Below, in pieces: positions 14,235 to 41,429 of a DNA stretch of 64,000 nt (position 1 is its first letter; every line of letters starts with the position of its first letter). Made by a program: the position numbers and the translations under genes. Under the pieces are notes generated by a model. It did not search any database and was not told where the DNA came from. It saw only the letters and a list, made by a program, of their open reading frames with translations. Origin of the DNA: Daphnia pulex (lineage: Eukaryota; Arthropoda; Branchiopoda; Diplostraca; Daphniidae); assembly GCF_021134715.1 (NCBI RefSeq), contig NC_060026.1, forward strand, positions 12,825,001 to 12,889,000, in the 5' to 3' direction.

Positions 14235-14238
14235 AAGC

Positions 14239-20428: not shown

Positions 20429-20540
20429 CCTGTCTGGGATCCATGAGCCCACCCAATTTGGGCTTACCAGCATATTCATAAATTTCTGTGATATGTAATG
20501 CCATCTTCTGTGACAGACATCCTTCGGATTTCATCTGGTC
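20429..20540 (-). pseudogene. RPB1 exon 1 fragment (canonical type)
   Basis: Minus-strand pieces read MSVTEDGITY and then KPKLGGLMDPRQG, with frame breaks between them. Canonical RPB1 has KLGGLMDPRQG; the intact gene at 33.3-33.66 kb has [11 protein letters not shown]. It is a remnant of a conventional RPB1-type gene. Confidence 0.75.
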
Positions 20541-21763: not shown

Positions 21764-22076
21764 ATGTCTACCTTTGAAAAACGAATAATTATGTTGACGA
21801 TCATAGGGTAGTGGTTAGAGCGTCAGATATATCCATTGATGTATCGGCCGGGATGTTCCAACGCACCTCTTGATTCTTTGTAGCTTTAACTAGTCACGCA
21901 TTGTTTGTTAGAGTAGTCGTTTCGAGTTTGAACATGTCATGTCATGTTTAAATGAAGGGACGCCAGTGTGCAAGTGTCTTTCTATACCCGATTAGTCTAT
22001 ATTGTTGTTTTTTTTTCAGTTTCCTTAAATATTTATTTATTAGTAGATTAAAGTTGGGCTCCGTACTCTTACATAA

Positions 22077-22142
22077 GCTGATTGGGTAATCGACTGGCCA
22101 GCGTTAAGCTGTGTTGTCAGCGGTTCAAGTCCTTGCACATTG
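22077..22142 (+). repeat. tRNA-like sequence, left copy
   Basis: Contains an A-box-like GGGTAATCGACTGGCC and a B-box GGTTCAAGTCC about 35 bases apart. A convincing cloverleaf with a complementary acceptor stem is not visible, so it is more likely a tRNA-derived relic or short interspersed element. The same sequence occurs at 34673-34738. Confidence 0.4.
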
Positions 22143-22637
22143 AAAACATTTTTTTAAACTCTGAATTAGTTTACAATTCAAATATTTTAACTTTATACGT
22201 TTTTAGTGTTTCTTGGCTGAATAATTAAATCTAATACATGAAAAAGTTAACTGAAATTTTGGGTGAACAGTTTTGAAGGAGGCAATTAATAATTCGGTTA
22301 AAATCTTGGATGTAAAATCGGGTTTTCAACTTTCTGATTTTAGCTGGCTCTACCATCTCTTCTTATTATACCATGGCTTTATCCTTTATCATATCCCTAT
22401 CAATATCTGCTCGTCCTAAGAAAGCATATAGCTTGTGAAACCATTGCCGAGATGACCATCAAATTTTGTAAATTTCTTAACTTTATTTTTGATGATAATA
22501 AAATCGTATTAAATAAATTTAAAAAAAAGATAGCAAAGGGAATTTATTTATTTTTAGAATTGTATTATTCATACTGACATTTCAAAGAAAAAAGCCTGCA
22601 GGCCAGAGGGGTGGTTTCAAATATTTGTTTGCTTTTT

Positions 22638-25016
22638 TCAAACATGAAAAATTATACCATCTTGACAGGCATCACTGCCGCAAGGGCAGCAAGTCAATTG
22701 ACATTGACACTCTTCGCAAAACAGCAGAGTCTTGCACCTGAATCTTCCCGTGATGATATCCTGTCCGCAAATCTGGCACAAAATGCTATCGACGCCCAAT
22801 TTCCAGTGAGCGATGAGAGACAAGATGAGCGTCGGCATGAAGCGATGGTACCACCGTCTTGGCTGATAAAAGGATATAATGGCATCATTTTGACCGCGAT
22901 CGAAACACGGATGCTTAATTTCTTCTTCGGCTAATTTTTCTACCACAACGCTCCTCTTACGACGTTCTTCGTTGATTTCCTCCAGTGTCACTTCAGTTCT
23001 TTCCTCGCCTCTTTTGGGTATAAGAAAATCGCATATGCGACACATGATGTAGTCCGACTTGCTCTGGTACAGTCCAATCAAGAAATAGAAAAAGGCCAGT
23101 AGAAACAACATGACCCACGTCCGCCAATCGACCGGAATGAAGGCCGTATTGCAGGCTGAAGTATCGGCGATCTTGCAGTATTTACTCTCGAGGCTGAAGC
23201 CGCCCAGGACGGCCCGCATCAGAACGGCGAACATTCCATCGCCCTGGACGTTGAAGACGAACCGGGCCGATCCGTAGTTGGGCACGACGAATTGGATATT
23301 CATCAGCAAATGATGCAAGTATTTGGCCGACTGCTCGAACCAGAAACAAAACATGACTTTGACAATCAAGCGGACCGATTCGGCGAATCGCGATGGATAG
23401 TTGTACATGATGTAAATGTAGTCGAACATGACACGGGTGAATGACGTGTAGTATCGTCCTTTTTCTCGTCGTGTCAGATGGACGTTCCAGCGTTCCATGA
23501 TGGCTCTGCTCAGGTAATTGTTGCAAAAGTAGAGATTGCGTCGGTATTTCAGCAGGAAAACGGTGGCGTAGATCAGAGATAACAGGACGAGTGACAGACA
23601 CAAACCGGCCAGTCCCCAGCTGATGAAATGACGCAACCACCAAGTCCATTTGGAGGTGAACAAATCGAAACCGGCCGTCATCTCCAGCAGGTCGTTGTTG
23701 ACTTTAGGTGTCAGCGGGTCGATGATGATTTCACGGGCCAGAGTATCCAGAGCTTCTTGATAATGGGCGAATGCTGCGCCAAATGCAGTGGTCTCATCAA
23801 AGTTCATGGAACAGAATTTCTCCACATCTAGCGAATCCAATCGTAGACACGAATAGTGTCCCAATTTGAAGCAAGTGTCGGTGACCAGGGCGACGAAATC
23901 GACTAAAGGGCCGAGGTTGAAAGTCTCCGTTCTGCAAGTGCCGTAAATGAAGTGAAAACATTCACCTTTCCACTGATTCTGTTTGATCTGACAAGCTGTC
24001 TGGAGAACGTTGGTGAATGCTTGATCCCACTGGGCGAAAGTGCTCATCGGTGAACGTGCCACTTGGCCAAACGTCTCGAAGATTTCCCTGTTCAACAGGT
24101 GAGCGCTTTCTTTCATAAATTCAATTTCTTGACGGTTCTGGTCGCTGAGTCCAAAGACCTTCTGGAACATTCGGAAAAACGGCAAGAGAAACACTTTGAC
24201 GAGGATCAGCTTCTCGTCGATGTAGAGGCCCATCAGGCAGATAATGTGGATCACAATCGAGCCGCAGTTGATGAAGATGCTTAGGATAGGTCCGAAAAAC
24301 AATTGGGTTTCAAAGACGTGCATAATGCAGAAACCGAAGAGCGGGATCAGCAGTTCCATGGAGGTGAGGACGCCGATGGCCGACAGGTAGAATTTCGGGT
24401 ACCACGGAGTTAGTGCGAATAAGCCGATAGCCACAAAAACAGCCATGACGTAAATGTTTTCAAAGTAGAGGTGGATCATGTAAAAGGCAGCCGACGCAGC
24501 GAATCCTATGAGCACGTTCAAAATGATGTTGTAGATGAGCTTACCTGCTCGGCTGAGGTATAGCCCTTGAACGAAAAACAGTAGAGAACACGCCAAACTG
24601 CCCACGAGAAACCAGTAAACATTCCATCGACGAGTGATGAGCGATAGACGACTGACATCTTCGATGGCGAGAACCAGGAGGTTGCCCAGTGATCTGATTT
24701 TATCCTGGACACCTTCGAGTAACCAATGGAGGGCTCTGATGGATCTGTCCCAGATGGTCGGGCGGCGGTTGATGGGTTCGTCGTCGCTGGTTTCATCGCA
24801 CGGCATTTCCCAGACGGTGCGAGATGAAACTGAGAAAAAGTCGCCGGGCGGTGGTAATTCGTCGCAGTGGGGCACCGGTTCTCCTTTGCTGGTGATGGAG
24901 ATGCGGTTGATGTCGCAGACGGTCATAATCGTTTCTCGTTCGAATGAGAAATTCGACGATGAAGCCATCGTCGCTGGTAGAAAGGCAATCAGCATGCAGT
25001 AAATGATTGGTAACAT
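22638..25016 (-). CDS. DC-STAMP domain membrane protein (Sneaky/DCST/SPE-42 family), copy A
   Basis: Single-exon gene of 792 residues. Hydrophobic segments lie near 133-154, 161-181, 187-204, 212-233, 241-264, 464-489, 545-560 and 633-650. Between the fifth and sixth is a Cys-containing loop (about 340-405) followed by the DC-STAMP core. The C-terminus (747-784) is a Cys-rich RING-like end with CQICG, CEECQC and CPCG. DCST1/2, fly Sneaky and worm SPE-42/49 share this layout and act in sperm at fertilisation, so a gamete role is inferred here, not shown. Start chosen at the first ATG; Met17 is an alternative. It differs from copy B at residues 11, 321, 514, 619 and 686 only. A TATATAA box lies upstream. 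Confidence 0.88.
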   Translation of the reverse strand: MLPIIYCMLIAFLPATMASSSNFSFERETIMTVCDINRISITSKGEPVPHCDELPPPGDFFSVSSRTVWEMPCDETSDDEPINRRPTIWDRSIRALHWLLEGVQDKIRSLGNLLVLAIEDVSRLSLITRRWNVYWFLVGSLACSLLFFVQGLYLSRAGKLIYNIILNVLIGFAASAAFYMIHLYFENIYVMAVFVAIGLFALTPWYPKFYLSAIGVLTSMELLIPLFGFCIMHVFETQLFFGPILSIFINCGSIVIHIICLMGLYIDEKLILVKVFLLPFFRMFQKVFGLSDQNRQEIEFMKESAHLLNREIFETFGQVARSPMSTFAQWDQAFTNVLQTACQIKQNQWKGECFHFIYGTCRTETFNLGPLVDFVALVTDTCFKLGHYSCLRLDSLDVEKFCSMNFDETTAFGAAFAHYQEALDTLAREIIIDPLTPKVNNDLLEMTAGFDLFTSKWTWWLRHFISWGLAGLCLSLVLLSLIYATVFLLKYRRNLYFCNNYLSRAIMERWNVHLTRREKGRYYTSFTRVMFDYIYIMYNYPSRFAESVRLIVKVMFCFWFEQSAKYLHHLLMNIQFVVPNYGSARFVFNVQGDGMFAVLMRAVLGGFSLESKYCKIADTSACNTAFIPVDWRTWVMLFLLAFFYFLIGLYQSKSDYIMCRICDFLIPKRGEERTEVTLEEINEERRKRSVVVEKLAEEEIKHPCFDRGQNDAIISFYQPRRWYHRFMPTLILSLIAHWKLGVDSILCQICGQDIITGRFRCKTLLFCEECQCQLTCCPCGSDACQDGIIFHV

Positions 25017-25103
25017 TATGCTGGTTTTAGTTGCTTTAAGAATGAGTCAACAACTAGTAGACAACAGCGTGAACTGAATTACTTTAAGATGGGTCGGCTG
25101 TAG

Positions 25104-25111
25104 TTTATATA
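25104..25111 (-). promoter_or_regulatory. TATA box of DC-STAMP copy A
   Basis: TATATAAA on the minus strand, about 90 bases before the ATG. The element and its flanks are identical in copy B, so both copies probably keep a functional promoter. Confidence 0.6.
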
Positions 25112-25388
25112 GACGGTGCTGGGTCTCCCGGTGTTGGCAACGATAACTGGCAACAATTATTTTCGATTTTTAGTATTGCAAATAATATTTGAATGATTTT
25201 TATTAGTGATTTCAGTCATTAAATTTTATTTCCAATATTGTTCTGCTATAATAGTCGCAAATATTTGCAATGATTTATTTATTATTACTTCTTTAATCTC
25301 TGTCGGTCAGTGCGTCACCATTCTTGACTAAAGAACAACGAAAACCTACTAGCAAAATTATAAAACACTACAGCTCTGCTTATGATAA

Positions 25389-25461
25389 GCACTTGTAGTG
25401 TAGTGGTTATCACGGCTGTCTCACACACAGCAGGTCCTCAGTTCGAACCTGGGCAAGTGCA
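25389..25461 (+). tRNA. tRNA-Val (CAC), copy A
   Basis: Acceptor stem GCACTTG pairs perfectly with CAAGTGC, followed by discriminator A. The D arm is GTGTAGTGGTTATCAC, the anticodon stem GCTGT/ACAGC holds loop CTCACAC with anticodon CAC, and the T arm is CTCAG-TTCGAAC-CTGGG. No intron. Identical gene in the right-hand duplicate at 37986. Confidence 0.93.
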
Positions 25462-26737
25462 TAAAGTATCACCTTTTTCCAAAATACGAATTCGAATTTT
25501 TAATTCAGAAAAATTCAAGTTCAAGTTTAAGTTGATTAATAGTTTGATTAAAATTCGAAAGCTTAGGAAATAGTATCTCATGGCCTATCCTATTGTTTGA
25601 ACCACGGGAATAACCAAATCAGCTATACTTTTATTTTAGGGGGCTATCTTTTCCTTCCAAATAGGTACGGCATGTTAAAAAAAAGAGAAATTTGATCTTT
25701 TTTGTCAAGTTTTTCCTTTATGGAAAATGTCTCGGGAAAATATTGCTCAAGACGACAAAAGAATTTTTGTATGGAAATCGGAAAAAGCGAATCAGTTACT
25801 AAATTAATGAAAACCGAACTAAAAAATATTTTTCTGTCGGCTAATGCTTTCTTAGTAATAGCTTTATTTTGTAAAGCTTTTCTTTTCACTTAAGGGTAGA
25901 CGACAAGGGGATAGGTGAGAAAAAAAAACATAATGGCTGACGCAGGTGAAAGTTAGAGAATGAAAAATATTCCGTTTCCTCACCCATCCCTCTCAGTCCG
26001 ACAATAATCGAAATTTCAGCACGTTACTTTTGTATTCAAGGCGATTTTATACATGTATCCGTGTTCCGTGCTACAGACATAACACAATGTCAGGAATTCG
26101 AACTCGGTGGAATCTGGAATTTGAATAAAGTCTACGTGTGACCGTGAGTCTTCTTAAAACGGTAGTAAGGGCTCCATATTTAGATCCACCTTTAGGCTGT
26201 TGAGCAACGACAAATGCTTTTGAATTGATTTGTGAATTGATTTCTGTTTCCCGATTAATGCACACTCCGCAAGAAACCTAATGAAGTTTAAATGCCGTAT
26301 AGGAAACACGCTAACAGTAGTTTACGTTCCAGGCTATACTCTCAGCAGCGTCTACGTTTGAATGGTGTCATAATATTATATAATTATTGCCAACAGGCGG
26401 TATCATTAGGTATTGCCAAAATAAATATTACCCAACATATCTTGTCAAAAGCAAAAATTAAAATATTGCAAGTCAGCCCAAGTTATTTCTCAGCCTTTAT
26501 TGACAACCATATCCTGTTCGTCTAGCTGCCACCTGTTACCTGTGCGTTTTGCGTGCGATATTGAGACCCGAGTGATTGTCTTTGTGCGACATTTTGCGCG
26601 TTTCTCTGCTCAACGAGGCGATGGTGGTATTTATTTCAGTCCATCAAGTTCCCACTTCATTAACTAGCACATTAACTTTCACTTTCAGTCGTTATCTTGG
26701 TCAAGTATACAATGGGACAGAGCACTATTTAACTGTC

Positions 26738-26805
26738 GCACCTATAGTGTAGCGATTATCACGGTTGACATACAACAGGTCCTCAATTCGACCATGGGCA
26801 GGTGC
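26738..26805 (+). pseudogene. tRNA-Val-derived pseudogene, copy A
   Basis: Aligns along its length with the intact tRNA-Val 1.3 kb away, keeping the acceptor pairing GCACCT/AGGTGC and the D-arm. The anticodon arm is shortened and its CAC anticodon lost, and the T-loop reads TTCGACC. It is unlikely to encode a working tRNA. Duplicated at 39316. Confidence 0.75.
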
Positions 26806-26996
26806 AGTTAACTCAACTTTTTGATTCAGTCATAAAATATTAACAGGATAATAAATGAATTACGAACGTTGATTCAAAACTAAGGAGAATTGAAACACAA
26901 AAAAGAGATTCATCGTTAATAAGAATTTTTTTAAATTTTAACTTAAGCTTAGATGAGTACACGATAATAAAATTAAAATCATAGGTGAGCACGAAT

Positions 26997-28077
26997 CTAA
27001 TCATCAAAAGACCAGGGAATTTGAATGCTGTGCAGGTCATCGACAGTTCCATTATGCCGGATCACAATGCCACGGTCTTCTGGAGCGCTGCATTTGGTGT
27101 TGTTGTACCACCAATCGTCAAGATTTCTAAACAGGATTTTTTTTAAAATGCTCTAGTTATGTAATTAAATTTTATTACACTACCGATAAATTTTGCGAGG
27201 AAGATTGCTATTCAGTTTCTCGCACAAATCACAAAACGGTCGAGAAGCCAATTCTCCATATCCCGAATGCACCTGAAAATTAATTTTCGTACGGAAAAAT
27301 GTAAACACTCAACTTAATTGTAATTAATTTGGTGTAAATTACCTTGTAAACGTCTTTCCACCAAAAATGACGGAAATAATGTTTTTCATCTTTTTCAAGT
27401 TTCAGTAAGTGATCAGCTAACTCTTTCGGGTTGAACGACAGAGCATCAATGAACGAATGTGGTGGTGCAATCAGTTTATAATCAGCTCCCCTGTTAAAAA
27501 AAAAATAATTCAAATTTTTAAAAAGGTTATCCAAATAAATGTCTTGTCCAACGTAATTAAATTAATACCAGAATTAAATTAACTATTGAAATTACCCGAA
27601 AACGATAGGCACAGTATTACGACTGAGCAGATCGAAAAATCTTTTCGTGACAAAGTCGTCACAAATGAAACGTTCGAATGCTAGAACGAATTTGTAATTC
27701 TCGGCCAACATGTCCAGACAAGGTAGAATAGCAGCAGTGGGTGTTCCGTTCGTTTCCGGACAACTTTGAGTGCCACAGGGTCCGTAGCTATCTACTTCAA
27801 TGTACTCCTGCACATAAAAAATGAAATAATGGTATTGCACGCTACTTAAAAGACTTTATTGTTGAGGTAATAAAATATTATTTGGAAAATACTACTCTCA
27901 ACTCGTTGATGTATCCTTCCCTTCCCGTTTGCTCTTGGATCCACAGCGAGCTACGTACCAGCCGACTAGCTTCTTCTTTTTCCAATTTTCTCGCATTCCA
28001 ATTCTTGTGCAAAAATTAATTCATTAGTTTAAAAGTAATTAAACGACTTGATGAGAAATTTTTACGTCTTACTGGGA
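26997..28077 (-). pseudogene. Alpha-1,3-fucosyltransferase, 5'-truncated and frameshifted copy
   Basis: Exons 28003-27896, 27807-27596, 27490-27343, 27272-27184 and 27126-26997 match exons 3-7 of the intact gene at 39.6-41.4 kb. Exons 1-2 are missing because the homology stops at 28077. Exon 3 also carries a five-base insertion (CTTCC duplicated in TATCCTTCCCTTCCCG), which shifts the frame. Later exons remain well preserved, consistent with recent inactivation. Part of the missing 5' end is found at 13441-13935. Confidence 0.9.
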
Positions 28078-28928
28078 AAAAGTATTTTTAAAAAGACTCT
28101 TGTCCCCCGCCAAGACAATTGGCACAATAAAAACGAGTGAAATAGGAGATTTTTCATGTATCAAATCGTACACACACATACACTCTCACATATATGCGCA
28201 TATTTTTGGACCAACAAAGAAAACACACGGGAGAAATAAACGAGGGGCAGGGAAACATAGGGGCGGCAGTTTTCCCATCATTACTTATCACATTCTCGAG
28301 ATGAATAAGCCGGGACAAAAAAATAACGAAAAATGGTTTAACGAATTTTAAATGCCCAGTCGGTTGCTTGCAAAATAAAGGGTTGTGTGGATTTTACTTT
28401 TGATAACGAAATATTGTGGGGACAAGATAAAGTAGGGGTGTAGGAGAATTAAGAGAATTCTCATAGTCGGAAATATTTTAAATGCGTGCAAAAAGTGAAT
28501 AATAAAGTTCTAGTAGTTTTGTTAAGATTTTTACTTTTGGGGGGAGATGGGGAGGGAAAATCTAATAAAGAGAAAAAAAAACTGCGCACTTTGTGCCACT
28601 GGCCCCGTTCATGAACGAAGAACGACAAAATGGGGGGGGGGGGGGGGGTTGGAGATAGAGAGGGCTTGTCCATGCCCGCCTTAGCTCACAGCTGAGAGAT
28701 CAAAGAGGGACGATCCTTCCGCGAAATGCCAAAAAACAAAACTTTAACAATCAAAAAGGAGGGAGAGATAAAGAGAAACAGGGAGGGCGGATGGGGGGAG
28801 AATTTTCCGAAAAGAATCGGTCGCAAGTTGCGCAATCTACGTTCGTTTTTCTTCTTGTTGTCGAGTTTGTTGGGGATGGGGAATACATTTGAAAGTAGTG
28901 GGACACTCTCTCGGTACAGGAATTGCGA
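28078..28928. other. Spacer between broken fucosyltransferase and RPB1-like gene
   Basis: No gene recognised. It contains the shared repeat at 28109-28187, AT-rich DNA and a run of 18 G near 28632-28649. No heptad-like (YSPTSPS) coding sequence is present on either strand, which matters because an RPB1 C-terminal domain would be expected here. Confidence 0.6.
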
Positions 28929-31900
28929 TTAGTTGATAATAATCTGCTCCGGATCAACATCGATAACATCAAAGCACCCTGTGCCCATACGTGGTAGCTG
29001 GCCTAAAATGATATTTTCGGACACACCGCGTAAAGGGTCAACTTCAGCATGTGCAGCTGCTTCCAGTAGCACATCTACCGTTTCTCGGACGGTACATCTC
29101 ATCAACGCACCAGTGTCCTAGAAAAACAAACACAAAACAAAACAAAACAAACACAAAACAAAACAAAACAAACCAAAACAAAACAAAACAGATTAGGGAA
29201 ATTGATTAGAGAACTACAATAAAACAAATTGTATTTACCTCTCTGTTAATTTCGCGAGGAGTGATGGCCATCGAATCACCCTCGGAAGTAATGACGTCAC
29301 AAAGAAGAGCCAGATGACGACGGTTGACGTCAAGGCCGTAGAATTGTAAAAGAGTTTTCATTTCTTTCTCTATGGATTTTCGAGCAGCCTCGATACCAAG
29401 AACAGCAATAATTTCACAAATGTCGTTTGAATAGGTACGAACAGGGTCGACATCACGTTCGCTCAACACTCTCATCAACTGCGTACCGTCCGTTTCGAGG
29501 ATCCATTCGGGGATTGCCTCAAACTCGCCGGCCTCTGTGACGACAATTCGCTTCTTCTGATCAGTTTGTGGCAAATGCATGTACACTTTGTTGATAGATT
29601 CAATGCCCTGTAATGTCATGTCAGACAGCATGTTGGCTTCGATGCAGCGCAAAAACACATCATCTTCCATCTTGTCAACTTGTTCTTCTTCGTCGCTACT
29701 GTCGCTGCTGCCGTCGCTATCCATGATGAAATGGATCCGAAGGACCAACTTTTCGGCGTTGTCATCGCTGAAGATTAGTTTGAGAGAGTTGCCGAACTCG
29801 GCATTGACTTTTTCAGCAATCTGCTTCATGGTCAACCGCTTGTCCGTCATACGCTTTCGATCAAGTTCGATACGCAACAACCAAGGCGAGAGTTGATTAG
29901 GATCAAAATCGGGCATTTCGTAGTAGACATTGACGAATTCCTGATCTTCCAGGATGACCGTGTTTCGAGGATCTGGGTCGTAGTAGATGGCTGTGTTCGC
30001 CTTTACCATTCGCAACGTCGTGTGCTCAAGCCGACACAAAACAATTTTAGCTTTTTCGGCATCACGTGCTGCTGCTCCCGTCAAGAAGACCGTCATAGAC
30101 GGGGCTTTCGGATTCTTACTGATGTTGATAATTTCATTAAGACGGGCGACACCGAGTGTTGCGTTCTTGGATGACACACCAGCAAAATGGAAAGTGTTGA
30201 GCGTCATTTGAGTGGCAGGTTCACCGATAGACTGGGCTGCGAGTGCTCCCACCATTTCACCAGGTTGAGCTTGCGCTTGCCGGAAACGGGTTTCGATCTC
30301 GCCGATGAGCCATTCAAAGGCTTCCGATGAAAGACGATATTCTTCAGCTAGTCGCTTGGAACACAATGTAGAGCGAACTAGGCACTGGAACAAGAGCGTG
30401 GCGTTCTGATTGGCTTGGATGCTCAATTTGTCTTCGCCAACGACGATGACGCATTTGGCTAGCAGGTCTCTAACGCCTTGGATAACACGAAGTGGACTCA
30501 AATCTGTCGGTGCTCGTTTGTTGATGCGGAACTTCTTCTGGACGTTCCAAATCATGCGCTGCAGGTTACAAGGCAACACCACTTTGTTCTCGCCGGTAGG
30601 GAAAATTTGACGTAGAGCCTCGCGATCTTTGTATAACTGCTCCCATTCGTGTTCGATTTCGGTGATGACTTCCGCGCTACTGGTCAATTCACGCGTGATT
30701 TCTTCATTAAACATGCGTCGAACATAGGGCTCGTTGCTTGGTTCAAACTTGAAATTCTTTTCGAATTCTGTATTCGAAAGCTTTACGGTTGGCAATGTCT
30801 GAAATTCGACGGATTCGCCAGAAAGCCCGTCTTCTCCATAGGAAAGCTGAAGAAGCTGGCCGGCAGAGTTCCGTACCGTTCCGTCGTAGTGGACCATCAC
30901 AGACTCCATAGCTTTGATGAGACGTCGCTGAATGTAACCAGAATTGACGGATGTATCGATGAGACGTTCACGACCAGCCATAGCGTGGAAGTAAAACTCG
31001 GAAGGTGTCAAACCTGACACGTATGAATTTTCGACGAAACCTCTAGATTCGGGACCGGAATCGTCTTTGATGAAGTGGGGCAAAGTCCTCTTGCGGAATC
31101 CAAAGGGAATTCGTTTACCCTCGACGTTCTGCTGACCGACGCAGGCAATGACCCGAGAGATGTTGAAATAAGATCCTCCGGAACCAGCTTCCACCATAGC
31201 CTTGAGGTTATTGTACTCTGTCAGAGAGTTCTTAGCTGAAGCACCAGTTTCGTCTCGGGTGTCGATTAGAATACGGTTTACTTGATTTTCGAAAGTCTCT
31301 CGTAGAGTGTTACCAGGTGTGGGTTCAAGCTCATCATTGTGAGACTTTTGAATGACCTCTATCACGTCTTCTTTAGCCTTTTGGATGGTAGCCTGAATTT
31401 CCATATACGTTTGATGATAAGCTATTAACGTGTCTGCAATGCCGATGCTGTGACCCTCGTACAGCAACCAGTTGTTGATGACCGTTTGAATGTTGCCGTA
31501 GAATCGACCGCATACTTCGTGACCCAATTCCATGAAAATAATGTGCAGCAGAGAGGCGGCAGAGTCACCGAGCGTCTTTTTACATAGAATGCCCATGACC
31601 AACTCGCCATTTTCGACCATGACTTTGGTGTCACCAGGAGAGATCCACTTGTAGGGCCCTTCGTCTTCATCATCAGGATGGGTAGAATGCGTTCGCATCA
31701 TGTTGACGTTTCCAGGGATGATGAGAGTGAACAACTGCTTGCCTATAATCATTAAAATAAATGTTATTTGCCATTTAGCTTAGACGTCATAATTAATCAT
31801 TGAATTACCTGTCCACTGAGGTCTCGGTTTGAGAATGGCTGGCTGAGGCATCTTGCCATTCCAAGTGGGGAGAAACATGAGTAAATTCATCATCTGGTCT

Positions 31901-33661
31901 TTCTCGAGGAACACGTCGCGCTTCGTCATCTTACTCGCACCTAGAAGTGCGTCTTGGACGATTCCCATAACAGGTTTATTGGCCTGGGGTGTGATGATTT
32001 GGCGTGAAGTGAGGAGAAGGTTTTCAGTTTCAGCACGCGTCTCCATACTTTGAGGAACATGCATGTTCATTTCGTCACCATCAAAATAGGCGTCGTAGGC
32101 GGCAGCAACGCTAGGATTCATACGAAACGTCGAAAAGGGGAGCACTTTAACACGATGTCCCATCATAGATTCTTTTCGCAACGACGGTTGCCGATTAAGA
32201 ACGACAAGATCGTCATCCCGAATATGACGTTCTATCCTATCACCACATTCCAGACCACGAACGTGCTTGGGGCGAAATCTCGGACCTATACGTCTGCCGT
32301 TTTTTTTAATTATGTACTTGGCTCCAGGATGCTGCCAGTCACCTCGCTGGACCAATTCTCGCATCTCGTCGATGTTGAAAGACGTCACGAATTCAGGGAA
32401 GGTAATTTTTTGTGCGATACTTGGTGGCACGCCGACTTGGTCGATACGCAGATTGGGATCAGGCGTAATTACTGTACGAGCCGAAAAGTTTACACGCTTT
32501 CCCATCAAGTTACTTCGAATACGCCCGTATCTCCCTGCAAATAGAAAGAAGAAAATACGTTAGATATTATTTAAAAAAAAACAAAAAATCTAAAATGTTT
32601 TACCTTCCAAACGTTGTTTGAATGACACGATCGGAAGTCCCGATTTCAACTTTGCAACCGGAAGGCCTTCAAGGACGTCATTCTTCATCATTGTGGCAAC
32701 ATGATTCTGAAGCATTCTTATATTTTCGGCAATGATGTGGGCCGCAGCACCAGATTGCACGTTGCTTTGCAGCTCATTGTTTGTTTTTATCACATCGGCC
32801 AATTTAAGTGTAATGTCTTCTTGGGTTGCCCCATTCTCAACTGCAGGTCGAACAGCAAGTGGGGGTACAGGCAAGCAAGTGACGATCATCCAATCTGGAC
32901 GAGCGCATGTAGGATCCATACCGAGGATTGCACACTCTTCGTCAGAAATGTGTTTGAAAATCTCCCAAACACGTTCAGCTGTCAAAACTATTTTCTTTTC
33001 TTGAGAGTCTTCATTGACGTGTTTCCACACGCCAATCATCCCCAATCCTTGACGACGAATTATAGGCTGATACCGACCACATCCAACATGACATGTTTTT
33101 TCTTCTTCTGATTTGTCCTCGTCTTCTCCAATATAAATTTTGCAGATGTTTATGCCTTTGCAGAGATCATATACATGGGCCAAACGTTTTCGAGGTTGCC
33201 CTTCGGAGTTCACCAAAATCTTCTGGATTCTTGGATTGTTGGGGCTCACCTAGGGAATCACGAAGTAAATCTTAAATTAGAACTTAAGATACATGTTGTA
33301 TGCAGATGTTAGACTTTACCAGTAGTTTTGAGCAGTAGAAACACACGCAGTGTAAGATTTTTATTGTCTTCATAAGAAACCCAATATGAAAGACTGGTTT
33401 AGCAAGATCGATATGACCAAAATGTCCTGGGCATTCTTTCCGTGTTCCCTTACAAGTTACACACCTTCCTGACTGATCAATTACTCCTAGTCTGGGATCT
33501 GTGAGCCCACCCAAATATTTGGGCTTTCTTTCATATTCTGGAAAAACTACGCCGCCATCTGTAACAGACATCCTTCGGATTTCATCTGGGCTCAAAATGC
33601 CAAATTGAACCCGTTTCACCAGCCGGATGGTGGCTTGCGAGTCTGATCCTAAAGTATCCAT
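28929..33661 (-). CDS. RPB1-like RNA polymerase II largest-subunit paralogue lacking the CTD
   Basis: Five exons, 33661-33320, 33249-32604, 32534-31809, 31742-29239 and 29117-28929, all with GT/AG ends and consistent phase, give 1468 residues and a TAA stop. The protein follows RPB1 throughout: zinc-binding clamp (CVTC, CPGHFGH), [42 protein letters not shown], trigger loop with [11 protein letters not shown], and the cleft and clamp end. Oddities: the metal-A motif NADFDGD reads DAYFDGD (Tyr479 replaces a catalytic Asp); the bridge helix VKTAETGY reads VNSGY, three residues short; VPRL after the trigger loop is VARL; the protein ends shortly after MGTGCFDV with no linker or heptads. The intact frame over 4.4 kb suggests it is kept by selection, but catalysis should be impaired. 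A recent pseudogene without stops is possible. Confidence 0.92.
29118..29195. repeat. AAAAC simple repeat in the last intron of the RPB1-like gene
   Basis: Units of AAAAC with occasional AAAC or AACAC interruptions fill most of the last intron. It does not disturb the splice sites on either side. Confidence 0.8.
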
Positions 33662-33717: not shown

Positions 33718-34345
33718 CAGGGGCCACTATCAAGAACGCTTTCAATGATTTCTTTAAATTTCGTTAAAAATAAGTAACAGAATAAAATGTAGTACCGTAG
33801 GAATGGGAAAGTACGGTGGATATCAACAAAAACAATACAATGCCAACAGAATGAGAAAAAAAAAACAGATATTTTCGGAAACAAGTGTACGATGCTTCCC
33901 CTGAACAATGGCGGTCTACGTCCGACTCGAAACTGAAACGTTTGAACGTATTTTGACTATTTTCCCTCCCCCTTTCCTAAAGAACGTTGCCATGTTTCTA
34001 TTTTTGTCTAGAGGTTGAGGATGTGAGGACAGAGCCGGTGAGGATGTGAGGATGAGGGTTTTCGGGGTTTTTAATCGTTTTTAACCCCAAACAAAATGCA
34101 AGAAGCGATTTTGTCATCATTGTTCATATCAACTCTTTTGATATGATTCGGTCCCGATAGACGAGATACGATACGAGATGTATGAAGGATCGAGCGGAGG
34201 TCATGCTCCTGCTCCAATGGCCCAAGCTATCATGAAATATATCGTGGTAATTATATTACAAATTACCGGTTTCAAAAATGAGAGGGAATACTCAAAATGT
34301 CGCCGGCCAGAGAATTAGATCCAAGATTTTACGACTGGGCGAATT
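33718..34345 (-). promoter_or_regulatory. Probable 5' flank of the RPB1-like gene
   Basis: Upstream of the ATG at 33661. An AG preceded by pyrimidines at about 33680 could mark an untranslated first exon boundary. The stretch 33718-34075 is shared with 17755-18720. No TATA box is evident, and the TTC-rich segments could be initiator or pyrimidine-rich elements. Promoter activity is inferred from position only. Confidence 0.35.
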
Positions 34346-34384
34346 AAATGTCAACCTTTGAAAAACGTAATTATCATGACGCTC

Positions 34385-34450
34385 ATAGGGTAGTGGTTAG
34401 AGCGTCTGATATATCCATTGATGTATCGGCCGGGATGTTCCAACGCACCT
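34385..34450 (+). repeat. tRNA-like A-box module, right copy
   Basis: GGGTAGTGGTTAGAGCGTC resembles a tRNA D-arm/A box, but the expected B box downstream is poor and no acceptor pairing is seen. Related copies are at 21455-21520 and 21805-21870, suggesting a tRNA-derived short repeat. Confidence 0.35.
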
Positions 34451-34672
34451 CTTGATTCTTTGTAGCTTTAACTAGTCACGCATTGTTTGTTAGAGTAGTC
34501 GTTTCGAGTTTGAACATGTCATGTCATGTTTAAATGAAGGGACGCCAGTGTGCAAGTTGTCTTTCTATACCCGAATAGTATATTGTTGTTTTTTTTTTTT
34601 TGTTTTTTTTTTCAGTTTCCTTAAATATTTATTTATTAGTAGATTAAAGTTGGGCTCCGTACTCTTACATAA

Positions 34673-34738
34673 GCTGATTGGGTAATCGACTGGCCAGCGT
34701 TAAGCTGTGTTGTCAGCGGTTCAAGTCCTTGCACATTG
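34673..34738 (+). repeat. tRNA-like sequence, right copy
   Basis: Duplicate of 22077-22142, with the same A-box-like and B-box motifs. Both copies are fully conserved, as expected from the recent segmental duplication, so this does not itself prove function. Confidence 0.4.
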
Positions 34739-35234
34739 AAAACATTTTTTAAAACTCTGAATTAGTTTTCAATCCAGATATTTTAACTTTATACGTTTTT
34801 AGTGTTTCTTGGCTGAATAATTAAATCTAATACATGAAAAAGTTAACTGAAATTTTGGGTGAACAGTTTTGAAGGAGGCAATTAATAATTCGGTTAAAAT
34901 CTTGGATGTAAAATCGGGTTTTCAACTTTCTGATTTTAGCTGGCTCTACCATCTCTTCTTATTAAACCATGGCTTTATCCTTTATCATATCCCTATCAAT
35001 ATCTGCTCGTCCCAAGAAAGCATATAGCTTGTAAAACCATTGACGAGATAACCATCAAATTTTGTCATTTTCTTAACTTTATTTTTGATATAATAATAAA
35101 ATCGTATTAAATAAATTAAAAAAAAAGATAGCAAAGGGAATTTATTAATTTTTAGAATTGTATTATATACTGACATTTCAAAGAAAAAAGCCTGGCAGGC
35201 CAGAGGGGTGGTTTCAAATATTTGTTTGCTTTTT

Positions 35235-37613
35235 TCAAACATGAAAAATTATACCATCTTGACAGGCATCACTGCCGCAAGGGCAGCAAGTCAATTGACA
35301 TTGACACTCTTCGCAAAACAGCAGAGTCTTGCACCTGAATCTTCCCGTGATGATATCCTGTCCGCAAATCTGGCACAAAATGCTATCGACGCCCAATTTC
35401 CAGTGAGCGATGAGAGACAAGATGAGCGTCGGCATGAAGCGATGGTACCATCGTCTTGGCTGATAAAAGGAAATGATTGCATCATTTTGACCGCGATCGA
35501 AACACGGATGCTTAATTTCTTCTTCGGCTAATTTTTCTACCACAACGCTCCTCTTACTACGTTCTTCGTTGATTTCCTCCAGTGTCACTTCAGTTCTTTC
35601 CTCGCCTCTTTTGGGTATAAGAAAATCGCATATGCGACACATGATGTAGTCCGACTTGCTCTGGTACAGTCCAATCAAGAAATAGAAAAAGGCCAGTAGA
35701 AACAACATGACCCACGTCCGCCAATCGACCGGAATGAAGGCCGTATTGCAGGCTGAAGAATCGGCGATCTTGCAGTATTTACTCTCGAGGCTGAAGCCGC
35801 CCAGGACGGCCCGCATCAGAACGGCGAACATTCCATCGCCCTGGACGTTGAAGACGAACCGGGCCGATCCGTAGTTGGGCACGACGAATTGGATATTCAT
35901 CAGCAAATGATGCAAGTATTTGGCCGACTGCTCGAACCAAAAACAAAACATGACTTTGACAATCAAGCGGACCGATTCGGCGAATCGCGATGGATAGTTG
36001 TACATGATGTAAATGTAGTCGAACATGACACGGGTGAATGACGTGTAGTATCGTCCTTTTTCTCGTCGTGTCACATGGACGTTCCAGCGTTCCATGATGG
36101 CTCTGCTCAGGTAATTGTTGCAAAAGTAGAGATTGCGTCGGTATTTCAGCAGGAAAACGGTGGCGTAGATCAGAGATAACAGGACGAGTGACAGACACAA
36201 ACCGGCCAGTCCCCAGCTGATGAAATGACGCAACCACCAAGTCCATTTGGAGGTGAACAAATCGAAACCGGCCGTCATCTCCAGCAGGTCGTTGTTGACT
36301 TTAGGTGTCAGCGGGTCGATGATGATTTCACGGGCCAGAGTATCCAGAGCTTCTTGATAATGGGCGAATGCTGCGCCAAATGCAGTGGTCTCATCAAAGT
36401 TCATGGAACAGAATTTCTCCACATCTAGCGAATCCAATCGTAGACACGAATAGTGTCCCAATTTGAAGCAAGTGTCGGTGACCAGGGCGACGAAATCGAC
36501 TAAAGGGCCGAGGTTGAAAGTCTCCGTTCTGCAAGTGCCGTAAATGAAGTGAAAACATTCACCTTTCCACTGATTCTGTTTGATCTGACAAGCTGTCTGG
36601 AGAACGTTGGTGAATGCTTGATCCCACTGGGCGAAAGTGCTCATCGGTGAAGGTGCCACTTGGCCAAACGTCTCGAAGATTTCCCTGTTCAACAGGTGAG
36701 CGCTTTCTTTCATAAATTCAATTTCTTGACGGTTCTGGTCGCTGAGTCCAAAGACCTTCTGGAACATTCGGAAAAACGGCAAGAGAAACACTTTGACGAG
36801 GATCAGCTTCTCGTCGATGTAGAGGCCCATCAGGCAGATAATGTGGATCACAATCGAGCCGCAGTTGATGAAGATGCTTAGGATAGGTCCGAAAAACAAT
36901 TGGGTTTCAAAGACGTGCATAATGCAGAAACCGAAGAGCGGGATCAGCAGTTCCATGGAGGTGAGGACGCCGATGGCCGACAGGTAGAATTTCGGGTACC
37001 ACGGAGTTAGTGCGAATAAGCCGATAGCCACAAAAACAGCCATGACGTAAATGTTTTCAAAGTAGAGGTGGATCATGTAAAAGGCAGCCGACGCAGCGAA
37101 TCCTATGAGCACGTTCAAAATGATGTTGTAGATGAGCTTACCTGCTCGGCTGAGGTATAGCCCTTGAACGAAAAACAGTAGAGAACACGCCAAACTGCCC
37201 ACGAGAAACCAGTAAACATTCCATCGACGAGTGATGAGCGATAGACGACTGACATCTTCGATGGCGAGAACCAGGAGGTTGCCCAGTGATCTGATTTTAT
37301 CCTGGACACCTTCGAGTAACCAATGGAGGGCTCTGATGGATCTGTCCCAGATGGTCGGGCGGCGGTTGATGGGTTCGTCGTCGCTGGTTTCATCGCACGG
37401 CATTTCCCAGACGGTGCGAGATGAAACTGAGAAAAAGTCGCCGGGCGGTGGTAATTCGTCGCAGTGGGGCACCGGTTCTCCTTTGCTGGTGATGGAGATG
37501 CGGTTGATGTCGCAGACGGTCATAATCGTTTCTCGTTCGAATGAGAAATTCGACGATGAAGCCATCGTCGCTGGTAGAAAGACAATCAGCATGCAGTAAA
37601 TGATTGGTAACAT
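35235..37613 (-). CDS. DC-STAMP domain membrane protein (Sneaky/DCST/SPE-42 family), copy B
   Basis: Same length (792 residues) and architecture as copy A: an N-terminal block of five hydrophobic segments, a Cys-containing loop, the DC-STAMP core, two or more further membrane segments and a C-terminal RING-like Cys cluster. Relative to copy A it has Val11, Pro321, Val514, Ser619 and Ser686. Both frames are intact, so two functional copies are likely, giving increased dosage or allele-like variants. The near identity could reflect recent duplication or gene conversion. Known relatives act in gamete fusion; expression here is unknown. Confidence 0.88.
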   Translation of the reverse strand: MLPIIYCMLIVFLPATMASSSNFSFERETIMTVCDINRISITSKGEPVPHCDELPPPGDFFSVSSRTVWEMPCDETSDDEPINRRPTIWDRSIRALHWLLEGVQDKIRSLGNLLVLAIEDVSRLSLITRRWNVYWFLVGSLACSLLFFVQGLYLSRAGKLIYNIILNVLIGFAASAAFYMIHLYFENIYVMAVFVAIGLFALTPWYPKFYLSAIGVLTSMELLIPLFGFCIMHVFETQLFFGPILSIFINCGSIVIHIICLMGLYIDEKLILVKVFLLPFFRMFQKVFGLSDQNRQEIEFMKESAHLLNREIFETFGQVAPSPMSTFAQWDQAFTNVLQTACQIKQNQWKGECFHFIYGTCRTETFNLGPLVDFVALVTDTCFKLGHYSCLRLDSLDVEKFCSMNFDETTAFGAAFAHYQEALDTLAREIIIDPLTPKVNNDLLEMTAGFDLFTSKWTWWLRHFISWGLAGLCLSLVLLSLIYATVFLLKYRRNLYFCNNYLSRAIMERWNVHVTRREKGRYYTSFTRVMFDYIYIMYNYPSRFAESVRLIVKVMFCFWFEQSAKYLHHLLMNIQFVVPNYGSARFVFNVQGDGMFAVLMRAVLGGFSLESKYCKIADSSACNTAFIPVDWRTWVMLFLLAFFYFLIGLYQSKSDYIMCRICDFLIPKRGEERTEVTLEEINEERSKRSVVVEKLAEEEIKHPCFDRGQNDAIISFYQPRRWYHRFMPTLILSLIAHWKLGVDSILCQICGQDIITGRFRCKTLLFCEECQCQLTCCPCGSDACQDGIIFHV

Positions 37614-37700
37614 TATGCTGGTTTTAGTTGCTTTAAGAATGAGTCAACAACTAGTAGACAACAGCGTGAACTGAATTACTTTAAGATGGGTCGGCTGTAG

Positions 37701-37708
37701 TTTATATA
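37701..37708 (-). promoter_or_regulatory. TATA box of DC-STAMP copy B
   Basis: TATATAAA on the minus strand about 90 bases before the ATG, identical in sequence and placement to copy A. Confidence 0.6.
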
Positions 37709-37985
37709 GACGGTGCTGGGTCTCCCGGTGTTGGCAACGATAACTGGCAACAATTATTTTCGATTTTTAGTATTGCAAATTATATTTGAATGATTTTTAT
37801 TAGTGATTTCAGTCATTAAATTTTATTTCCAATATTGTTCTGTATATAAAAGTCGTAAATATTTGCAATGATTTATTTATTATTACTTCTTTAATCTCTG
37901 TCGGTCAGTGTGTCACCATTCTTGACTAAAAAACAACGAAAACCGACTAGCAAAATGATAAAACACTACAGCACGAGAATTATAA

Positions 37986-38058
37986 GCACTTGTAGTGTAG
38001 TGGTTATCACGGCTGTCTCACACACAGCAGGTCCTCAGTTCGAACCTGGGCAAGTGCA
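37986..38058 (+). tRNA. tRNA-Val (CAC), copy B
   Basis: Identical to the tRNA at 25389-25461: complete acceptor pairing, anticodon CAC in loop CTCACAC, and T-loop TTCGAAC. The flanks differ slightly while the gene itself is unchanged. Confidence 0.93.
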
Positions 38059-39315
38059 TTAAGCTTTATCTTTTTCCAAAAATACGACTTCGAATTTTTA
38101 ATTCAGAAAAATTCGAGTCCAAGTTTAAGTTGATTAATAGTTTGATTAAAATTGGAAAGCTTAGGAAATAGTATCTCATGGCCTATCCTATTGTTTGAAC
38201 CACGGGAATAACCAAATCAGCTATACTTTTATTTTAGGGGGCTATCTTTTCCTTCCAAATAGGTACGGCATGTTAAAAAAAAAATACGAAGAGAAATTTG
38301 AACTTTTTTGTCAAGTTTTTTCCTTTATGGAAATTGTCTCGGAAAAAGATTTTTTGGAGGGGAATAAGCTAATCAGTTACTGTAAAAATGAAAACCGAAC
38401 TAAAAAATATTTTTCTGTCGGCTAATGCTTTCTTTTGTAAGTAATAGCTTTCTTTTGTAAAGCTTTTCTTTTCACTCTAGGGCAGACGACAAGGGGATAG
38501 GTGAGAAAAAAAACATAATGGCTGACGCAGGTGAAAGTTAGAGAATGAAAAATATTCCGTTTCCTCACCCATCCCTCTCAGTCCGACAATAATCGAAATT
38601 TCAGCACGTTACTTTTGTATTCAAGGCGATTTTATACATGTATCCGTGTTCCGTGCTACAACAGACATAACACAATGTCAGGAATTCGAACTCGGTGGAA
38701 TCTTGAATTTGAATAAAGTCTACGTGTGACCGTGAATCTTCTTAAAACGGTAGTAAGGGCTCCATATTTAGATCCACCTTTAGGCTGTTGAGCAACGACA
38801 AATGCTTTTGAATTGATTTGTGAATTGATTTCTGTTTCCCGATTAATGAACACTCCGCAAGAAACCTAATGAAGTTTAAATGCCGTAATAGGAAACAGGC
38901 TAACAGTAGTTTACGTTCCAGGCTATACTCTCACCAGCGTCTACGTTTGAATGGTGTCATAATATTTTATAATTATTGCCAACAGGCGGTATCATTAGGT
39001 ATTGCCAAAATAAATATTACCCAACATATCTTGTCAAAAGCAAAAATAAAAATATTGCAAGTCAGCCCAAGTTATTCCTCAGCCTTTATTGACAACCATA
39101 TCCTGTTCGTCTAGCTGCCACCTGTTACCTGTGCGTTTTGAGTGCGATATTGAGACCCGAGTGATTGTCTTTGTGCGACATTTTTGCGCGTTTCTCTGCT
39201 CAACGAGGCGATGGTGGTATTTATTTCAGTCCATCAAGTTCCCCCTTCATTAATTTTCACTTTCAGTCGTTATCTTGGTCAAGTATACAATGGGACCGAG
39301 CACTATTTAACTGTC

Positions 39316-39383
39316 GCACCTATAGTGTAGCGATTATCACGGTTGACATACAACAGGTCCTCAATTCGACCATGGGCAGGTGC
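39316..39383 (+). pseudogene. tRNA-Val-derived pseudogene, copy B
   Basis: Duplicate of 26738-26805, identical over the tRNA-like part. The anticodon arm is degraded as in copy A, so the decay predates the segmental duplication. Confidence 0.75.
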
Positions 39384-39585
39384 AGCTAACTCGACTTTTT
39401 GATTCAGTCATAAAATACTAAAATATTAACAGCTCATAATAAATGAATTATTACGAACGTTGATTCAAAATTAAGGAGAATGGAAACACAAAAAAGAGAT
39501 TCGTCGTTAATAAGAATTTTTTAATTTTAACTTAAGCTTAAATGAGTACACGATAATCAAATTAAAATCATAGGAGAGCACGAAT

Positions 39586-41429
39586 CTAATCATCAAAAGA
39601 CCAGGGAATTTGAATGCTGTGCAGGTCATCGACAGTTCCATTATGCCGGATCACAATGCCACGGTCTTCTGGAGCGCTGCATTTGGTGTTGTTGTACCAC
39701 CAATCGTCAAGATTTCTAAACAGGATTTTTTTTTAAATGCTCTAGTTATGTAATTAAATTTATTACACTACCGATAAATTTTGCGAGGAAGGTTGCTATT
39801 CAGTTTCTCGCACAAATCACAAAACGGTCGAGAAGCCAATTCTCCATATCCCGAATGCACCTGAAAATTAATTTTCGTACGCAATAAATGTAAGCACTCA
39901 ACTTAATTGTAATTAATTTGGTGTAAATTACCTTGTAAACGTCTTTCCACCAAAAATGACGGAAATAATGTTTTTCATCTTTTTCAAGTTTTAGTAAGTG
40001 ATCAGCTAACTCTTTCGGGTTGAACGACAGAGCATCAATGAACGAATGTGGTGGTGCAATCAGTTTGTAATCAGCTCCCCTGTTTAAAAAAAAATAATTA
40101 AAATTTTTAAAAAGCTTATCCAAATAAATGTCTTGTCCAACGTAATTAAATTAATACTAGAATTAAATTAACTATTGAAATTACCCGAAAACGATAGGCA
40201 CAGTATCACGACTGAGCAGATCGAAAAATCTTTTCGTGACAAAGTCGTCACAAATGAAACGTTCGAATGCCAGAACGAATTTGTAATTCTCGGCCAGCAT
40301 GTCCAGACAAGGTAGAATAGCAGCAGTGGGTGTTCCGTTCGTTTCCGGACAACTTTTAGTGCCACAGGGTCCGTAGCTATCTACTTCAATGTACTCCTGC
40401 ACATAAAAAATGAAATAATGGTATTGCACGCTACTCAAAAGACTTGATTGTTGAGGTAATAAAATATTATTTGGAAAACACTACTCTCAACTCGTTGATG
40501 TATCCTTCCCGTTTGCTCTTGGATCCACAGCGAGCCACGTACCAGCCGACTAGCTTCTTCTTTTTCCAATTTTCTCGCATTCCAATTCTTGTGTAAAAAT
40601 TAATTCATTAGTTTAAAAGTAATTAAACGTTTTGATGAGATATTTTTAAAACGTCTTACTGGGGAAACGAATGTCTTATTTTCAACGGCTGGTCCAGCAG
40701 CTTCTCGATCCAGCCCCTCTTCCAGGTGATGTCGGCATTCTCCCGGTAAGAGATTGTCCAGTTGAAGAAACTCCCGAAATGGTTGTCACGCTCAAAGTAA
40801 TTGCGAGGGTAGCACATGGGGGGATCGTCGGTGAGCAAAACGAATCGCTGAAATCCTTGGCGGCCGTGAATTTTCGGTAGTTCGCACAAGTTGGTGTAGA
40901 GGAACACGATGGCATCCGCTTGTTCAGGAATCACTTTGGTTTTGTTTTTCGACAGGACGCAATTTGTGACCTTGCACCCCATACGACTGATATGAGATAA
41001 GAAAATATGTCATTAGATCTTAACAGTTTTTTTTCTCTTATATAATAATGTCAAAATAAACAAATCAGCTGAGCTTTTAGTAGATTTACAATCTCCAAAA
41101 TAAATTCTAAATGTTTTAACTTAATTTGACAAATAAATCAATAAAAATTACCTGAAAGAAGAGTCGTCATCCAACGTGAAACCAAAGTCGCCGTACCACG
41201 GATTCCACATGAGAATTGTTTTCACTTTTTCAGATTCCTGAAAACTAACCGATGATTGATGCTCAATGTACTTAACAATATCCAATTCTTTAACTTCAAC
41301 ATTTTCCGTTTCATCGATTGTCAGCTGTTTCAGAGTGAAGACGTTGAATAAAAAGAAGAGCCACAGCGGGTAGAGAATACGATGTCGATTGAGTTTATAA
41401 AACACGTTCTGAAATCTACGTCTATTCAT
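39586..41429 (-). CDS. Alpha-1,3-fucosyltransferase (GT10 family)
   Basis: Transfers fucose from GDP-fucose to glycans in the Golgi. Seven exons, 41429-41152, 40986-40660, 40587-40485, 40396-40185, 40079-39932, 39860-39772 and 39715-39586, join in frame to 428 residues. Seen: a short basic N-terminus and a membrane anchor (about 17-33, LYPLWLFFLFNVF), giving type II topology; the NWKKKKLVGWYVARCGSK block (exon 3); the donor-site region with FVLAFERFICDDFVTKRFFD; VPIVFGGADYKLIAPPHSFI across the exon 4/5 junction; and a C-terminal Cys-containing tail. These are GT10 hallmarks. Which linkage it makes (core alpha-1,3 or Lewis type) cannot be told. The sulfotransferase gene downstream is another Golgi glycan enzyme. 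A truncated copy lies at 27.0-28.1 kb. Confidence 0.92.

Follow-up and report, generated by a model that had tools for sequence, protein, structure and literature searches.

Background

RPB1, the largest subunit of RNA polymerase II (Pol II), is among the most conserved of cellular proteins, and plants are known to have duplicates of the largest subunit that took on new roles. The largest subunits of plant Pol IV and Pol V, RNA-producing enzymes of a silencing pathway, are not known to carry the heptad C-terminal domain (CTD). Another relevant precedent is that of the pseudoenzymes (for example pseudokinases), which retain a fold and an open reading frame after a catalytic residue has been lost. 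The Pol IV and Pol V subunits are fast-evolving duplicates of the Pol II largest subunit in which changes cluster near metal A and in the bridge helix, and they nevertheless keep the DFDGD motif and require it (PMC2605557, PMC2988716). Heptad repeats are also absent from the RPB1 of Trypanosoma, Leishmania and Paramecium, which are working genes, that of Paramecium being single-copy (PMC12716044).

We found no PMC paper on a pseudoenzyme form of the RNA polymerase II largest subunit, and no report of an RPB1 duplicate in Daphnia or another animal by title or abstract opening among the PMC matches listed; a Daphnia galeata paper names RPB1 as a network hub (PMC10544471). Here we describe RPB1L, a gene of Daphnia pulex located in a window of 64 kb (the whole stretch of DNA analysed). 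It shares with canonical RPB1 its colinearity, seven core domains, zinc ligands and trigger-loop residues, and differs from it by the absence of the CTD, a metal-A motif reading DAYFDGD instead of NADFDGD, the loss of three bridge-helix residues and a branch some four times as long as the insect-like chain has. We suggest, with a probability of roughly 0.5, that RPB1L has been retained as a paralogue of the Pol II largest subunit without catalytic function, a "pseudo-polymerase" subunit.

Results

RPB1L lies on the minus strand and consists of exon 1 (33320..33661, residues 1-114, with the ATG start), exon 2 (32604..33249, residue 115 to part of residue 330), exon 3 (31809..32534, the active-site domain with the metal-A motif), exon 4 (29239..31742, which encodes the pore, funnel, bridge helix, foot, trigger loop and jaw) and exon 5 (28929..29117, the last clamp segment followed by TAA, without CTD). 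The introns (70, 69, 66 and 121 nt) are all GT-AG, and the coding sequence of 4407 nt encodes 1468 residues with unbroken splice sites and zero internal stops or frameshifts. The coordinates, strand, exon count, terminal residues and stop agree with the original prediction, made from the sequence, of a five-exon gene of 1468 residues with clean splice sites. Missing from that prediction were the losses at the catalytic site, the sister copy decaying in the same window and the flanking 6.4-kb direct duplication.

The seven Pfam domains Rpb1_1 to Rpb1_7 are all above threshold in the protein and are the sole families found at E 0.001. Residues 8-1458 are colinear with PDB chain 9mu7_A, the best PDB match, which we take to be a Drosophila-like (insect-like) RPB1, so that the predicted colinearity with the Pol II largest subunit holds. 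Identity amounts to 1088/1444 aligned residues with this chain and 985/1446 with 7ega_o, presumably the mammalian RPB1 (1i3q_A being, we assume, that of yeast); piecewise E-values range from 8e-117 to 1.7e-174, so that a chance match is not a concern. Animal Pol II chains outscore archaeal, Pol I and Pol III chains wherever the latter passed threshold. All 8 clamp zinc ligands checked are retained, exon 1 keeping C67, C70, C77, H80, C107 and C110 (yeast numbering). A retrocopy origin can be ruled out, since four introns are present, introns 2 and 3 being common to the sister scraps described below; a viral origin can be ruled out as well, the best PDB matches being animal Pol II. Among IMG/VR loci, identity to the insect-like query does not exceed 61%, and the highest values come from short stretches; where residues 1-550 are matched, it is 33-44%.

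The protein stops after residue 1468, and both the linker and the CTD are absent. A six-frame search of the whole window revealed no run of heptads: the strict pattern Y[ST]Px[ST]P occurs just once, as an isolated YSPFTPD at 5413 on the plus strand, and relaxing it yields three further solitary matches on the minus strand (57675, 62346 and 62893), all upstream of RPB1L. The missing CTD and the lack of downstream heptad coding sequence, both noted in the original prediction, are thus confirmed on the scale of the window. One could still imagine that a heptad exon is joined by unseen splicing, or that the gene is an assembly chimera, since the region is rich in duplications, which assemblers can misjoin, and exon 5 departs, as at a rearrangement point, from a canonical-like scrap shortly past the residues CFD. 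This scrap of the sister C-terminal exon (12434..12505, minus strand) has 87% identity over 12459-12505, and its reading, CFDLFLDADK-stop, looks like the start of a canonical linker. We consider such an explanation extremely improbable: heptads are absent from the 28.9 kb downstream of the RPB1L stop, and a single assembly error would not produce several catalytic changes unrelated to one another together with an in-frame deletion of 9 nt.

The loss of the CTD is real, but the main functional lesion of RPB1L lies elsewhere. In exon 3, the metal-A motif is changed from NADFDGD to DAYFDGD (N479D and D481Y in yeast numbering), so that the first of the three aspartates expected of a competent RNA polymerase is gone, and RQPTLHK has become RQPSLRK, with H451 replaced by Arg. 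In exon 4, an in-frame 9-nt deletion has removed T831-A832-E833 from the bridge helix (VKTAETGY to VNSGY). Several independent codon changes together with this in-frame deletion rule out a sequence error. D481, N479, H451 and T831 are each conserved in 80 out of 80 prokaryotic loci, the best 80 of at least 568 confirmed among at least 584 pattern matches; these were retrieved by LHKMSMM or DFDGDEM, patterns that favour H451 and D481-D485, N479 and T831 lying outside them. We term these loci archaeal-type, one of them (L047) being labelled as an Aquificota MAG. D481 is also conserved in the 13 viral-collection loci aligned there, out of 25 (12 to 16 of the 25 are aligned at the various catalytic sites, and 3 are repeat contigs). 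One best tblastn segment per locus was used for these counts. An AlphaFold model of residues 573-900 computed with 14 of the 17 passing loci was set aside (mean pLDDT 56.9, below 50 in the bridge-helix region).

Could this be a rebuilt active site rather than a lost one? The original prediction had invoked, as one example, a specialised polymerase in the manner of plant Pol IV/V; such a subunit, its active site rebuilt, would be adapted to unusual templates. Q1078, L1081, N1082 and H1085 are catalytic residues of the trigger loop, and all are retained in RPB1L, whose QMTLNTFH motif is intact. The hot spots of change coincide with those of the plant enzymes, around metal A and in the bridge helix (PMC2605557), and PMC2988716 reports both that plant Pol IV has a 2-residue bridge-helix deletion and that the C-terminal hinge of an archaeal bridge helix tolerates 2-residue deletions, with a peak at A822/Q823. 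We place these two residues opposite yeast A832/E833, and the deletion in RPB1L need not be disabling alone, given this tolerance. Metal A is another matter. Pol IV and Pol V keep all three aspartates, and D451N in NRPE1, a single change at another of them, disrupts Pol V (PMC2605557); in RPB1L the first aspartate is a tyrosine and the adjacent asparagine an aspartate, in addition to the three missing bridge-helix residues. D481 is invariant in the prokaryotic and aligned viral loci, the former being the best 80 of at least 568 and partly retrieved by DFDGDEM itself. Because Pol IV and Pol V keep DFDGD and RPB1L does not, we regard a working Pol IV/V-like polymerase as very unlikely, and this part of the original prediction is not supported. 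Presumably, too, NRPD1 and NRPE1 have moved much further from their Pol II parent than RPB1L has from its own.

RPB1L has a sister copy in the same array, reduced to scraps. Sequences similar to the gene and to its 5' flank span about 12.4-21.4 kb of the window. Besides the C-terminal exon already mentioned, they include, all on the minus strand, intron 2 with exon 3 (12783..13023, residues ~325-395, with a premature stop and deletions), a second intron 2 scrap recognised by similarity (13070..13124), a piece across intron 3 (14400..14547, residues ~558-582, 88.5% identical) and part of exon 1 (20421..20544, residues 25-61, with indels); stops or indels are present in the scraps at 12.4-20.5 kb. 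The 5' flank of RPB1L (33739..34337, minus strand) resembles 17828-17982 (77%), 18616-18699 (84%) and 21286-21400 (73%). RPB1L itself is flanked by a 6.4-kb direct duplication. The left copy (21762..28080) carries a DC_STAMP ORF (22638-25046, minus), a tRNA-Val (25389-25461, plus) and a partial fucosyltransferase recognised by similarity to the right copy; the latter (34346..40667) carries the same ORF (35235-37643, minus), tRNA-Val (37986-38058, plus) and fucosyltransferase.

The rate of change in RPB1L appears accelerated, most strongly by count around the active site. In relative-rate comparisons, RPB1L has 198 changes against 59 in the insect-like chain, with 34 against 3 in the active-site/dock region, 6 against 0 in the trigger-loop region and 17 against 15 in the foot; the corresponding branches are 0.279 and 0.071 (about fourfold), and part of this long branch may be that of the species, not of the copy. 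RPB1L differs at 97 of 694 sites identical across insect-like, mammalian and yeast RPB1. Heterogeneity of these changes across 12 regions is not significant (P 0.14), and the catalytic regions are more often changed (29/146) than the rest (68/548), with P 0.03 for regions picked after the fact. Of these sites, 124 are conserved in 95% or more of the prokaryotic loci as well (again the best 80 of at least 568), and RPB1L differs at 11 of them; locus L066 likewise differs at 11 of the 124, G823 and T827 among them, with its metal triad unchanged.

It is here that the most serious alternative must be weighed, namely that RPB1L is a young pseudogene, a tandem copy born without CTD, now under weak or no selection and free of stops by luck or recency. 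The lost catalytic residues and the 97 altered deeply conserved sites are what one would expect of such a gene, the sister copy shows where it would be heading, and over 133 codons shared with the scraps there are 9 RPB1L-specific replacements against 13 scrap-specific ones (one of them a stop), 7 being unassignable. On the other side stand 4407 nt without stop or frameshift. If the 197 replacements at sites identical in insect and mammal were neutral, some 9.9 nonsense changes should have accompanied them, and none is seen (P ~5e-5). The absence of stops and frameshifts leaves room for roughly 14-36 neutral missense changes if the indel:substitution ratio is 0.15-0.03, so that 1.2-3.0 of the 124 universal sites should have been hit; in fact 11 are changed (P 4e-8 to 3e-4). 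The result is P 3e-5 to 0.012 if only 8 of the 11 are counted, and weaker, P 0.014, with nonsense alone and indels ignored. With 11 changes where 1.2-3.0 are expected, catalysis was therefore probably lost while the frame was kept. Constraint is also still graded by conservation, with 97/694 changes at the sites shared with yeast versus 113/437 at animal-only sites (P 9.6e-7), and dN/dS against the scraps is 0.30 (95% CI 0.18-0.49), a value from 133 codons (16 gapped codons dropped) in which two branches are mixed. We are inclined to give the pseudogene a substantial chance, somewhat short of even.

Discussion

We favour the idea that RPB1L is a retained non-catalytic paralogue. A tandem duplication of the gene for the Pol II largest subunit would have given rise to RPB1L. 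The copy has lost its linker and CTD, and its losses at metal A and in the bridge helix would have come while selection still maintained the reading frame. The protein would be made, fold, and still be able to bind subunits of Pol II, RPB2 among them, acting without RNA synthesis, most simply as an assembly competitor or a scaffold tuning the Pol II pool. A catalytically dead largest subunit can assemble, since Pol IV and Pol V subunits with all three metal-A aspartates changed to alanine still co-precipitate the second subunit (PMC2605557). It might not persist, since in human cells excess or defective Pol II largest subunit is degraded (PMC7617427). The suggestion in the original prediction that an intact frame reflects selection for another role survives in part: the absence of stops and frameshifts, the gradient of constraint, the decayed sister copy and, with two branches mixed in it, the dN/dS value speak for it. 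Its idea of a decoy may still hold, and the role like that of Pol IV/V is not supported.

If RPB1L is expressed, its missing CTD and lost metal-binding residue make an inactive partner or decoy more likely than a working enzyme. It resembles the pseudoenzymes in having, as judged from its sequence, a conserved fold, an open frame and a missing catalytic residue. It differs from the heptad-less RPB1 of Trypanosoma, Leishmania and Paramecium, working genes (PMC12716044), by its damaged catalytic centre, and it looks like an extra copy. More tentatively, and with less confidence than we would give even to the pseudogene, we propose that it could be a selected pseudo-RNA polymerase of an animal, in which an RPB1 devoid of CTD and dead at metal A would still join Pol II subunits and regulate transcription without synthesising RNA, because it keeps subunits, promoters or quality-control factors occupied.

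If RPB1L is a young pseudogene, the locus remains a clear case of a tandem pair of RPB1-like copies, of which one is open and the other decayed. If it is retained, nature would have provided a dominant-interfering polymerase subunit, an animal RPB1 copy with neither CTD nor catalytic metal site, and RPB1L could be used to probe what the assembly of Pol II, its quality control and its occupancy of promoters do without RNA synthesis.

Gene structure and descent

The RPB1-like gene (RPB1L) lies where the original prediction had placed it, and its five exons, splice sites and open frame are confirmed. The exons (33661-33320, 33249-32604, 32534-31809, 31742-29239 and 29117-28929, minus strand) are separated by introns of 70, 69, 66 and 121 nt, all GT-AG, and the spliced coding sequence of 4407 nt gives 1468 residues with zero internal stops, in which Pfam recognises seven Rpb1 core domains. 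When the protein was searched against the PDB in five pieces, 9mu7_A, which we take to be a Drosophila-like chain, came first every time, with mammalian chains next and fungal Pol II behind; archaeal, Pol I and Pol III chains, where the threshold admitted them, rank under the animal Pol II chains. Identity is 1088/1444 residues with 9mu7_A and 985/1446 with 7ega_o (presumably mammalian), these two chains sharing 1131/1460.

The claim that the C-terminal heptad domain is missing is also borne out: exon 5 is canonical up to MGTGCFD and the stop comes 12 residues further on. No strict heptad occurs in any minus-strand frame across the 64 kb window, its sole strict match being one isolated YSPFTPD on the plus strand at 5413; a relaxed pattern adds three more isolated minus-strand matches in the window, all upstream of RPB1L. 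A fragment of a decayed sister copy (12505-12434, minus strand) translates as CFDLFLDADK-stop, which resembles the start of the canonical linker. Because this scrap reads so, the linker was probably present in the common ancestor of RPB1L and the sister copy, and a local rearrangement probably removed it from RPB1L.

Catalytic centre and depth of conservation

Damage to the catalytic centre had not been noticed in the original prediction. The metal-A motif NADFDGD reads DAYFDGD (N479D and D481Y in yeast numbering), H451 is Arg and K752 is Gly; the bridge helix has lost T831-E833, and its changes include G823R, A828S, K830N and T834S. The zinc ligands C67, C70, C77, H80, C107, C110, C148 and C167, and the trigger-loop residues Q1078, L1081, N1082 and H1085, are all retained.

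Where 9mu7_A, the mammalian chain and yeast agree (694 sites), RPB1L differs at 97 (94 substitutions, 3 gaps), against 113 of the 437 common to the two animal chains only (104 substitutions, 9 gaps; Fisher P 9.6e-7). At 767 sites shared by mammal and yeast, it differs at 148 and the insect-like chain at 73. We defined 124 universal sites in a 550-residue core as those identical in all three chains and shared by 95% or more of the best 80 of 568 prokaryotic loci, whose retrieval by LHKMSMM or DFDGDEM favours H451 and D481-D485. RPB1L departs at 11 of them (E333Y, F444L, H451R, P477A, N479D, D481Y, L489M, S579T, G823R, A828S and deletion of T831). The best 80 of the 568 loci depart at 1.25 on average and at 11 at most. 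The locus with this maximum (L066), an RNA polymerase segment from a Thermoproteota MAG, has T827K in the bridge helix among its 11/124 changed near-universal sites; its metal triad is intact.

Evolutionary rate and selection

The branch leading to RPB1L is long: 0.279, where the insect-like chain has 0.071. Relative-rate counts are 198 versus 59 with the mammalian outgroup (P 4e-18) and 114 versus 52 with yeast (P 1.5e-6), the control of insect-like against mammalian chain giving 73 versus 69 (P 0.74). The excess is greatest in the active-site/dock region (34 versus 3) and about nil in the foot (17 versus 15), with 21 versus 4 in the jaw, 6 versus 0 in the trigger-loop region and 16 versus 11 in the clamp head. 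Across 12 regions, deeply conserved sites show no significant heterogeneity (P 0.14); comparing the catalytic regions, picked post hoc, with all others gives P 0.03.

Neutrality of the 197 replacements at sites shared by insect and mammal would predict some 9.9 nonsense changes; 0 are observed. The lack of stops and frameshifts allows some 14-36 neutral missense changes (P >= 0.05, with indel:substitution ratios assumed to be 0.15 to 0.03). At the 124 universal sites, 1.2-3.0 neutral changes are expected and 11 are seen (P 4e-8 to 3e-4; 3e-5 to 0.012 if 8 only are counted; 0.014 on nonsense alone). With so few neutral changes allowed, most of the conserved-site damage probably accumulated in a frame that was still being maintained, unless the canonical gene of the species shares this damage. 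Against four sister-copy scraps (133 codons), dN/dS is 0.30 (CI 0.18-0.49). On the same codons, 9 replacements are specific to RPB1L and 13 to the scraps, so that constraint on RPB1L is weak. A young pseudogene is the close rival to our reading of RPB1L as a retained, non-catalytic paralogue.

Genomic setting

Two direct copies of a 6.4-kb block, 96.5% identical, flank RPB1L (21762-28080 and 34346-40667), each with a DC_STAMP ORF, one tRNA-Val (CAC; 25389-25461 and 37986-38058) and fucosyltransferase exons. Both DC_STAMP-like ORFs are intact (802 residues) and differ at 10/2409 coding positions, the remainder of the block at 102/3856. Scraps derived from RPB1L-like exons, introns and flanking DNA, with 73-91% identity to RPB1L, are found at 12.4-21.4 kb. 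Those of upstream DNA stop next to the left block, as the upstream DNA of RPB1L stops next to the right one, which suggests a tandem unit (RPB1-like, DC_STAMP, tRNA, fucosyltransferase) whose left RPB1 copy decayed; since the scraps are out of gene order, a single event does not account for them. In introns 2 and 3, RPB1L and the scraps differ at 20/126 aligned positions. The RPB1 parts therefore seem to predate the blocks, which would have been duplicated later or homogenised. A weak, sub-threshold endonuclease-reverse transcriptase match among the scraps (14190-14447) suggests that retroelement insertions helped to fragment the sister copy.

A 5' fucosyltransferase stretch (13442-13925, 96.5% identical to 40944-41426) lies detached from its gene amid the scraps, and the left block stops short of the corresponding part. 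A sulfotransferase open frame (42878-43888, minus strand) adjoins the fucosyltransferase gene, and a tRNA-Glu (CTC) pair is found at 45677-45748 and 45998-46069.

Discussion

The three aspartates of NADFDGD are reported to hold metal A, and altering them to abolish activity (PMC2605557); a largest subunit that lacks metal A is not expected to synthesise RNA. The idea of a specialised polymerase of the plant Pol IV/V kind is not supported. RPB1L has the same hot spots of change and, like them, a bridge-helix deletion (PMC2988716), but Pol IV/V keep and need DFDGD, which is altered in RPB1L, so that it should not work as they do.

In Arabidopsis, NRPD1 and NRPE1 in which Ala replaces all three Asp are reported still to co-precipitate their second subunit (PMC2605557), so that assembly in the absence of catalysis is possible. 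In human cells, Pol II quality control is described as disposing of excess or defective largest subunit (PMC7617427), and such disposal would be a real obstacle for any competitor or scaffold. RPB1L is an RPB1 by descent which, judged from its residues, fails as a polymerase at the metal site, and its simplest active role, since dead subunits can assemble, would be to compete for Pol II subunits or to act as a scaffold.
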